Source: Actinomycetota bacterium (lineage in GTDB: Bacteria; Actinomycetota; Actinomycetes; Propionibacteriales; Propionibacteriaceae). Taken from it: a stretch of 64,000 bases of DNA. The stretch is from positions 1 to 64,000 of the forward strand of contig JAIUOT010000009.1 in the NCBI GenBank assembly GCA_020161015.1. The letters run 5' to 3'. Below are positions 53,671-55,572 of this stretch, one piece after another. A program made the translations under genes and the position numbers. Within the stretch, counting starts at the first letter, position 1. Each line of letters starts with the position of its first letter. Below the pieces are notes generated by a model, which was given only the letters and a program-made list of their open reading frames with translations, was not told where the DNA came from and did no database searches.

Positions 53671-53718
53671 ATGTCGTCGGTGCGACTCCTGCTTGGTCGC
53701 CGCAGCGAGGCCTCGTAA
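53671..53718 (+). CDS. leuA leader peptide (MSSVRLLLGRRSEAS)
   Basis: A 15-codon ORF encoding MSSVRLLLGRRSEAS with three consecutive Leu codons, CTC CTG CTT (53686-53694). It ends 69 bases before leuA. Its 3' half contains CGCAGCGAGG, which pairs with CCTCGCTGCG (53731-53740) just beyond the stop codon. That anti-sequence can instead pair with CAGCGAGG at the leuA ribosome-binding site. Leucine leader peptides before leuA have been predicted in other actinomycetes; this instance is read directly from sequence. Start coincides with the predicted transcription start. Confidence 0.72.
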   Translation: MSSVRLLLGRRSEAS

Positions 53719-53782
53719 CGGATCAGGCCTCCTCGCTGCGGAGTTCTGCACGCGCCTGGCACGAAGCCGCCAACCAGCGAGG
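53701..53782 (+). promoter_or_regulatory. leuA leader RNA switch with two competing helices
   Basis: CGCAGCGAGG (53701-53710) is complementary to CCTCGCTGCG (53731-53740), 10 bp. CCAGCGAGG (53774-53782), which contains the leuA Shine-Dalgarno, offers the same 8-mer CAGCGAGG to the same anti-sequence (8 bp). The two helices exclude each other. A ribosome reaching the leader stop would cover the first copy and release the anti-sequence to block leuA. One stalled at the first Leu codon would leave the first helix free to form. No T-tract terminator is present, so control would act on translation initiation. Confidence 0.68.
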
Positions 53783-53787
53783 AACCG

Positions 53788-55572
53788 ATGACCACCCACT
53801 CTTTCCCGACGCGTATCCAGCCTGCGCCGGTGCAGCAGCCCAGCCCGATGCCGTTCGGCCGCTACACGCCGTTCCAGCCCATCGACCTGCCTGACCGGAC
53901 CTGGCCGACGAAGAAGATCACCGCGGCGCCCCGCTGGTTGTCCACCGACCTGCGGGACGGGAACCAGGCGCTGATCGACCCGATGACGCCGTCGCGGAAG
54001 CGGAAGATGTTCGACCTCCTGGTCCGGATGGGCTACAAGGAGATCGAGATCGGGTTCCCGTCCGCCTCGCAGACCGACTTCGACTTCGTGCGCAGCCTGA
54101 TCACCTCCGACGCCGTCCCCGACGATGTCACCATCAGCGTCCTCACCCAAGCCCGTGAAGACCTGATCGAACGCACCGCGCAGTCCCTGATCGGGGCGAA
54201 GCGGGCGACCATCCACATGTACAACGCGACAGCGGAACTGTTCCGGCGGGTGGTGTTCAACATCGACGAGGCGCAGTGCATCGCCATGGCGTCCCGGGGC
54301 ACCGAACTGGTCATGAAGTACGCCGAGCAGAACCTCGGCGACGTCGAGTTCGGCTACGAGTACAGCCCCGAGATCTTCACGCAGACGCCGACCGACTTCG
54401 CCATCGAGGTCTGCAACGCCGTGTCGGACGTGTGGCAGCCCGGGCCGGGCAGGGAGATCATCTTCAACCTGCCGGCGACGGTCGAGCGGTCCACCCCGAA
54501 CACCTACGCCGACCAGATCGAGTACTTCGGACGGCACATCCGCAACCGCGAGCACGTCTGCATCTCGCTGCACCCGCACAACGACCGCGGGACCGCCGTG
54601 GCCGCAACCGAACTGGCCGTCATGGCCGGTGCCGACCGCGTCGAGGGCTGCCTGTTCGGCCACGGCGAGCGCACCGGCAATGTCGACCTGGTGACCCTGG
54701 GGCTGAACCTGTTCAGCCAGGGCATCGACCCGAAGATCGACTTCTCCGACATCGACGAGATCCGTCGGACGGTGGAGTACTGCACCAACCTGCCGGTCCA
54801 CCCGCGCCACCCGTACGCGGGGGACCTGGTCTACACCGCCTTCTCCGGCTCCCACCAGGACGCCATCAAGAAGGGGCTGGAGGTGCTGGAGAACCAGGCC
54901 GCTTCCCAGGGGAAGTCTCTGCACGAGATCCCCTGGGAGGCGCCCTACCTCCCGATCGACCCGCACGACGTCGGCCGCACCTACGAGGCCGTGATCCGGG
55001 TCAACAGCCAGTCCGGCAAGGGCGGGATGGCGTACATCATGAAGTCCGAGCACCACATGGACCTGCCGCGTCGGCTCCAGATGGAGTTCTCCCGCGTGGT
55101 CCAGCAGCGCACCGACTCCCAGGGTGGCGAGGTGTCGCCGGAGGAGATGTGGCGGATCTTCGCCGACGAGTACCTGGCCGACGTGGAGCCGCTGAGCCTG
55201 GTGACGGTGAAGTCGGTGTCGAACGGGCACGGCTACTCGGTGACGACCACCGTCCACGACCGGGGGGTGGAGCGCGAGATCACCGGGGAGGGCAACGGCC
55301 CGGTGTCGGCCTTCGTCGATGCCCTCGGCATCCTCGGCTACCGGGTGCGCGTCCTCGACTACACCGAGCACGCCCTGTCCTCCGGTGGTGACGCGATGGC
55401 CGCCGCCTACGTGGAGGCCGAGCTCGGCGAGGGCGAGGACGCCCACGTCCTGTGGGGCGTCGGCCTGCACGAGTCGATCGTGACCGCCTCCCTGCGCGCC
55501 GTCGTCGGCGCGATCAACCGGGAGGCGCGCCGCGCCGCCGCCGAGGCCGTCCCCCCGGAGCCCCGCCCCTGA
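53788..55572 (+). CDS. leuA: 2-isopropylmalate synthase
   Basis: 594 residues, the long (type II) form usual in actinomycetes. LeuA condenses acetyl-CoA with 2-ketoisovalerate, the committed step of leucine synthesis. Motifs: [19 protein letters not shown] (metal-binding Asp after the LRDGNQ loop), [13 protein letters not shown] (HxH-type metal site), [17 protein letters not shown], and the C-terminal regulatory LeuA_dimer domain ([19 protein letters not shown]), which gives leucine feedback inhibition in relatives. A leucine leader peptide and SD-sequestering helix precede it. The stop codon lies in the first unit of a 20-bp tandem repeat. Confidence 0.97.

Follow-up and report, generated by a model that had tools for sequence, protein, structure and literature searches.

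A lineage variant of the actinobacterial LEU element upstream of leuA in Propionibacteriaceae and the pairings that may hide the leuA start

Introduction

How might a 15-codon open reading frame (ORF) with three consecutive leucine codons, lying just upstream of leuA in a genome of the family Propionibacteriaceae, govern the expression of that gene? In translational attenuators such as those of ermC and rtpA, hiding of the Shine-Dalgarno (SD) sequence of the downstream gene depends on where a ribosome sits in a leader ORF. At the present locus the signal and the structure differ from those of ermC and rtpA, and the leader has a pseudoknot and Leu codons that double as an anti-SD strand. An initial annotation of this DNA proposed that an 8-mer present both in the leader ORF and at the leuA SD competes for a single anti-sequence, such that a ribosome at the leader stop codon would let the anti-sequence block leuA, and a ribosome stalled at the first Leu codon would leave leuA open.

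That annotation also held that leucine leaders before leuA are already known in actinobacteria, and this is the case: the LEU element was described by Seliverstov et al in 2005 (PMC1262725). The text of that paper describes a pseudoknot, prefers a protein-binding site, judges translation of the leader unlikely, and leaves the mechanism open. It also gives a secondary account of mutations in the leuA leader of Streptomyces coelicolor, which are called inconsistent with classical attenuation; in one place the mutants are credited with some effect, and in another Leu-codon changes are said to have no influence on regulation.

In this paper we compare the leader with its relatives, fold it with a ribosome at defined places, and consider which of its overlapping pairings could hide the start of leuA.

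Materials and methods

The DNA analysed (the window) is a stretch of 64,000 nucleotides, positions 1 to 64,000 of contig JAIUOT010000009.1 (assembly GCA_020161015.1). Coordinates refer to the window, and features lie on the plus strand unless stated otherwise. We sampled 221 leuA upstream regions, of which 25 came from the genus of the window, 117 from other genera of the family and 79 from named actinobacterial loci. The detector called a leader where at least two adjacent Leu codons were followed by a hairpin. One of its 211 detections (L035) was anchored on a wrong hairpin. Of the 211, 210 could be given a leuA start (L227 failed), and removal of L035, together with L157 and L217, whose starts were wrong or unclear, gave a set of 207; L155 had no leader start and was dropped, leaving 206 leaders for promoter spacing and folding. 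Five loci (L049, L050, L051, L052 and L054) were excluded from the segment co-adaptation and pseudoknot tests because they duplicate family genomes.

Results and discussion

The leader upstream of leuA

The leader ORF spans 53671-53718 (ATG TCG TCG GTG CGA CTC CTG CTT GGT CGC CGC AGC GAG GCC TCG TAA) and would encode the peptide MSSVRLLLGRRSEAS; as initially annotated, it has 15 codons and a Leu run, CTC CTG CTT, at 53686-53694. The ATG of leuA lies at 53788, and the gene (53788-55572) encodes a 2-isopropylmalate synthase of 594 aa with HMGL-like, IPMS_D2 and LeuA_dimer domains. The repeated 8-mer is also as annotated: CAGCGAGG occurs at 53703-53710 and at 53775-53782, the latter at the leuA SD, and its complement CCTCGCTG occurs once between them, at 53731-53738. 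Among 5000 sequences obtained by dinucleotide shuffling of these 120 bases, one had such a copy/anti/copy layout. The first copy forms part of a hairpin of 11 perfect pairs between a 5' arm (segment B, CCGCAGCGAGG, 53700-53710) and a 3' arm (segment C, CCTCGCTGCGG, 53731-53741), and the second lies in the SD region (segment D, CAGCGAGGA, 53775-53783), which could form 9 pairs with TCCTCGCTG at 53730-53738. The motif AGCGAGGA followed by ATG within 3-9 nt occurs 12 times on the two strands of the same genome, against 6 for the reversed pattern.

Three further pairings are predicted. A strand in the hairpin loop, TCAGGC (53723-53728), matches GCCTGG at 53754-53759 with one wobble and would form a pseudoknot. 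In the minimum free energy (MFE) structure the Leu codons and the GGT behind them (segment A, 53686-53697) pair with 53769-53781 and so act as an anti-SD, and the start of the leader (segment E, 53673-53681) forms a 9-bp helix with the start-codon region of leuA (53784-53792).

On these features the leader is the LEU element of actinobacteria, known since 2005. Like the element of PMC1262725, it is found in the same phylum before the same gene and has a short upstream ORF (uORF) with a Leu run, a base stem between the Leu codons and the leuA SD, and a pseudoknot between the hairpin loop and a downstream strand, which we take to be the published pseudoknot from the text of that paper. Compared with the element as that text describes it, the present leader differs in two respects: its SD region copies the 5' arm of the hairpin, making the 3' arm a second anti-SD, and in its clade the start of the leader also pairs with the start codon of leuA. 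A further likeness is to LeuL1 of Streptomyces lividans, reported as a leaderless 15-codon peptide (MRFGLLLLSCRGEGL) without a typical intrinsic terminator (PMC8079986); the Streptomyces loci that we examined differ from the window in having no AGCGAGGA copy at the SD. Rfam 15 models run over 52000-55000 at E <= 10 gave six matches, all below the gathering score and none overlapping the leader.

Distribution in relatives

Homologous leaders largely keep the Leu run and the hairpin: both were detected in 211 of the 221 loci, comprising all 25 of the genus, 107 of the 117 from other family genera, and all 79 named loci. Ten were missed by the detector; L132 is truncated by the end of its contig, and six (L032, L033, L034 and L036, with CTC ATC CTT, and L176 and L207) retain the hairpin with altered sensor codons, such that their runs read Leu-Ile-Leu, Phe-Leu or Leu-Pro. 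No LEU element was visible by eye upstream of leuA in three family loci (L161, L218 and L221); in L161 and L218, also by eye, leuA sits close behind the end of an era-like gene.

With a covariance model the element was recovered from 374 of 394 class-level genomes (E <= 0.001), representing 131 of 138 genera, and from only 33 of 296 genomes of a phylum sample (E <= 0.01), both scans being run with stricter filters. Weaker matches of the model in the genome of the window itself (best E 0.027; four viewed) were set aside, as they lie mostly within coding sequence and look like chance.

Promoter, leader translation and sensor codon

An extended -10-like element, TGT-CACCAT (53656-53664), lies 6 nt upstream of the leader ATG; a consensus scan gave no canonical promoter. 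Across the 206 leaders the end of a -10-like hexamer lies 6-7 nt from the leader start in 142 and 9-10 nt in 52, as judged with a loose motif in a search window of roughly 4-12 nt. From this spacing the leader transcript is probably leaderless, as has been reported for the S. lividans leader (PMC8079986), and the leuA uORF of Mycobacterium abscessus has been reported to be ribosome-protected (PMC4974804). In 92.2% of the 206 leaders the run ends in CTT, a codon that makes up 0.7% of the 2987 Leu codons counted in the leuA ORFs of the named loci; this preference fits a sensitised sensor codon, though it may instead reflect a constraint on the RNA sequence.

The conserved core

In the alignment of the hairpin 98.1% of cells are paired, and both sides have changed at 4 pairs (53 sequences). 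The cell count and the covariation score exceed those of shuffles (0 of 500 as high); neither the count of pairs changed on both sides (83 of 500) nor that of pair types (335 of 500) does so, and the hairpin sequence itself is highly conserved. MAFFT columns miss the register of the pseudoknot across groups, so each leader was tested on its own, with partners swapped between genera for comparison: a helix of at least 5 bp is present in 174 of 201 leaders, against 0.40 after the swap, and it occurs in 88 distinct sequence versions.

Among the pairings that reach the SD, it is that of the Leu codons (A:D) that is co-adapted. Permutation, which here ignores kinship below the level of genus, gave as good a fit in 0 of 1000 trials within the family and in 1 of 1000 overall; the 30 non-family labels alone were not significant (114 of 1000), and the control pairs A:C and B:D were flat. 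Within the family, pairing of the 3' arm with the SD (C:D) gave no sign of co-adaptation at the level of species, in that 280 of 1000 permutations did as well, although the test has low power there because the 3' arm hardly varies; the corresponding counts were 2 of 1000 for all leaders and 90 of 1000 for non-family leaders. Of the three segments that the initial annotation suggested testing for covariation, the two hairpin arms covary, and the third does not co-adapt with the 3' arm within the family.

The conserved core of the LEU element consists of the hairpin, the pseudoknot and the A:D pairing between Leu codons and SD. The pairing first annotated, between the 3' arm and the SD, is one of three able to hide the leuA start and is not the conserved one; the pseudoknot, the Leu codon pairing and the probably leaderless ORF had been missed. 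The Leu codons would be sensor and anti-SD strand at once, so that changing them would also weaken repression; this offers a testable explanation of why mutants of these codons could behave oddly.

Ribosome position and the opening of leuA

The computed structures and co-adaptation suggest that the LEU element is probably a leucine-responsive translational attenuator; its stalling, its action on translation and its direction are what we infer. Transcription would begin at or next to the leader ATG, to judge from the promoter spacing, and ribosomes would load on this ATG directly. When leucine is ample, the ribosome would reach the stop codon at 53716 and cover arm B together with the pseudoknot strand that lies in the loop, freeing E, A and C to pair with the start codon and SD of leuA and turning the gene off. 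When charged tRNA-Leu is short, the ribosome would stall at the beginning of the Leu run and cover E and A; B:C would then form, the pseudoknot could lock it, and leuA would be on because C is unable to take the SD.

The leaders were folded with the ribosome masked, assuming a footprint of 30 nt and without pseudoknots. The median cost of opening the SD in the 206 leaders was 6.1 kcal/mol with no ribosome, 4.75 with the A site at the first Leu codon, 5.5 with it at the last, and 6.5 at the stop codon; in the 58 leaders with an SD copy it was 6.6, 5.1, 7.4 and 8.2 kcal/mol, respectively. At a margin of more than 0.5, the cost at the first Leu codon was lower than at the stop in 128 of the 206 leaders and higher in 24, the latter including 5 of the 7 leaders of genus g16 and 2 of the 4 of the copy-bearing genus g22. 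With the last Leu codon the cost was lower than at the stop in 97 of the 206 and higher in 53, and among the 58 copy leaders a stall there was worse than the empty state in 31 and better in 18. The stall that folding favours lies nearer to the start of the run than the conserved rare CTT. When the opening was extended from the SD through the start codon, the 17 leaders of the window's clade gave 7.8 empty, 6.0 at the first Leu codon, 7.3 at the third and 10.8 at the stop; the eight non-copy leaders of the same genus had no difference between states (2.6, 2.8, 3.4 at the third Leu codon and 2.9 at the stop).

With no ribosome the main partner of the SD in the copy leaders is the Leu codons (0.49, against 0.16 for the 3' arm); in the window the largest share falls to the sequence immediately 5' of the SD (0.39, against 0.28 for the Leu codons). 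With the ribosome at the stop codon, the SD pairs with the 3' arm at 0.61 in the window and at a mean of 0.58 in the 58 copy leaders, compared with 0.25 in the other family leaders and 0.08 in the named ones. Blocking of leuA by the anti-sequence, as initially proposed, is in this sense reproduced for the window, but it lies outside the conserved core. The companion claim, that a stall at the first Leu codon opens leuA, agrees with the lower cost of opening. The unpaired share of the SD, however, barely shifts: its mean is 0.22 stalled against 0.17 at the stop in the copy leaders, and it is 0.20 against 0.18 in the window. The place of the Leu codons is taken by upstream sequence close by and by the 3' arm (0.28), and the stalled state still costs about 5-6 kcal/mol to open. 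A pseudoknot could hold the 3' arm away from the SD. On the folding results, then, the model is carried mainly by the closure of leuA at the stop codon and by the place of the stall on the Leu run.

Because SD unpairedness changes so little, there is room for transcription attenuation, in which the position of the ribosome would alter Rho access or termination and not the translation of leuA. Several papers call the leuA leader an attenuator, and Rho-dependent termination would leave no hairpin signature. We nevertheless regard transcription attenuation as unlikely, given that a consensus scan of 53580-53900 found no terminator-like site, and hence no intrinsic terminator competing with an antiterminator as in a classical transcription attenuator, that LeuL1 of S. 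lividans is likewise reported without a typical terminator (PMC8079986), and that the SD and start codon of leuA are where several of the pairings meet.

Lineage-specific additions

To the translational attenuator outlined above, we propose that the lineage of the window has added two tightenings, the SD copy and a clamp on the leuA start codon; the Propionibacteriaceae form would then be a lineage variant of the known LEU element, and a functionally plausible one. Of the 131 Propionibacteriaceae leaders scored, 52 carry AGCGAGGA at the SD of leuA. It is invariant in four genera (14 of 14, 5 of 5, 5 of 5 and 4 of 4) and is carried by 17 of 25 leaders in the genus of the window and by 5 of 9, 1 of 12 and 1 of 1 in three more. 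None was counted in the other 20 of 28 genera, two of which hold missed carriers (L033 in g17 and L157 in g24): the automatic count left L033, L132 and L176 unscored and missed L157 and L125 through a wrong start, and all five carry AGCGAGGA. Three of the 79 named loci have the copy, two being duplicates of family genomes and one an Ornithinimicrobium; it is absent from the other 76, as it is from most genera of Propionibacteriaceae.

In the genus with 14 leaders CAGC, the four bases before GAGG, is conserved at 0.93-1.0 and the adjacent upstream base at 0.36, so that conservation ends where complementarity to the 3' arm ends. By this comparison the conservation of the copy goes further than that of an ordinary SD. 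C:D helices 8 bp or more in length are present in 48 of 53 copy leaders and in 13 of 74 others, and when segment D of the 53 was swapped for a non-copy one the median gap between stop and stall fell from 2.64 to 0.65. The copy could also be a product of chance, or merely inherited sequence, with no function, as would accord with the 20 genera in which it is uncounted, with the lack of C:D co-adaptation within the family, and with the flank in the copy genera g7 and g22, which is largely conserved too; we think this quite unlikely in view of the invariant 8-mer in four genera, the varying flanks in the largest of them, and the excess of long C:D helices in the copy leaders.

The clamp between the start of the leader and that of leuA is 7-9 bp long in all 17 copy-bearing leaders of the window's genus and just 3-6 bp in the other eight. 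In the window it contains one compensatory change, C-G replacing G-C with the pair kept, and the window leader pairs more strongly with the leuA start of its own locus (-15.0 kcal/mol) than with those of the 16 others (at best -11.2). Swaps within the 17 were as good as native in 33 of 1000 trials; across all 25 leaders of the genus none of 500 was as good, which partly reflects the difference between two clades. As a family-wide feature the clamp was rejected (178 of 900 permutations as good), and it is specific to the clade of the window.

LEU-type leaders before other genes

Genomes with at least two matches to the covariance model were chosen deliberately, and 50 loci in them were examined. 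The element precedes leuA or leuA-like genes in 33; the other 17 comprise 4 leuC, 10 leuB and 3 LeuA_dimer-like genes. The leuC leaders (L264, L265, L268 and L300; VRAQRLLLRCRGGASS and similar) are Leu leaders directly before the gene, in genomes of family f9 that also carry the element before leuA; leuC was identified by Pfam in L264 and L300 (L264 also by NCBIfam) and by eye in two. The leuB loci (L275, L276, L299, L302, L303, L304, L306, L309, L310 and L311) have Ile/Leu/Val leaders such as MRHIFVLRCRGGAS and MRNVLVLIHCRGEA, the gene being checked by domain search in L275, L302 and L309 and by eye in the rest. In L273, L279 and L281 a Leu/Val leader precedes a small stand-alone protein like the allosteric domain of LeuA, with a LeuA_dimer match above the Pfam cut-off in L273 and L279 and only a weak NCBIfam match in L281.

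Rare synonyms are frequent in these leaders. Counting every codon per leader against a background of 10 downstream ORFs, GTA makes up 8 of 14 Val codons and ATT 5 of 9 Ile codons in the leuB leaders (background 0.8% and 2.8%), and CTT makes up 8 of 12 Leu codons in the leuC leaders (2.9%). Rare codons in the leaders of leuC, leuB and the LeuA_dimer-like genes favour codon-specific stalling, and such stalling is open to a direct test in the relatives before leuC and leuB, where the codons are swapped. In the titles and abstract openings searched, which mostly covered journals outside subscription, the elements before leuC, leuB and LeuA_dimer-like genes are unnamed, and Rfam 15 gave nothing useful for 13 non-leuA loci at E <= 0.1.

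On balance we lean towards the view that LEU is the leuA member of a wider, leaderless class of branched-chain sensors in Actinomycetes, to which Propionibacteriaceae add locks by copying a hairpin arm onto the SD. The frame proposed for the class is a short uORF, a hairpin arm encoding a CRGEA/RRSEA-like tail, a pseudoknot, and swappable, often rare, sensor codons; its proposed placements are before leuA, before leuC, before an operon of a small ORF and leuB, and before the stand-alone LeuA allosteric-domain protein. That the LEU element is a protein-binding site and its leader peptide incidental, as PMC1262725 proposed from the phylogenetic pattern and the S. coelicolor mutants, would suit the highly conserved hairpin sequence and is nonetheless the least probable of the alternatives, since the RNA frame is constant and the sensor codons change with the gene behind it (Leu before leuA and leuC, Ile/Leu/Val before leuB), each of these amino acids is often encoded by a rare synonym, the pseudoknot strands vary through 88 helices, unlike a site read by a protein in its sequence, and the M. 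abscessus leader is reported to be ribosome-protected (PMC4974804).

Several of the leuB loci that carry a putative branched-chain sensor have additional features. Between the element and leuB, L275, L276, L302, L303 and L310 have a small ORF, about 20-45 codons long, in which a ..QxSMDxRxxG..-like motif recurs and which is possibly the first target of the leader; three of these ORFs were scanned without a Pfam match, two of them also without an NCBIfam match. An ilvE-like aminotransferase follows leuB in L275 (by Pfam) and in L276, L302 and L303 (by eye). Second leuA-like genes with a LEU-type leader of their own were found in L270, L272, L278 and at other second matches. In the window itself, a divergent small ORF (MPKTTRTGKAREDELPATLQR...) lies on the minus strand at 53119-53541, between era and leuA, and may encode a ChaB-like protein, judging by eye.
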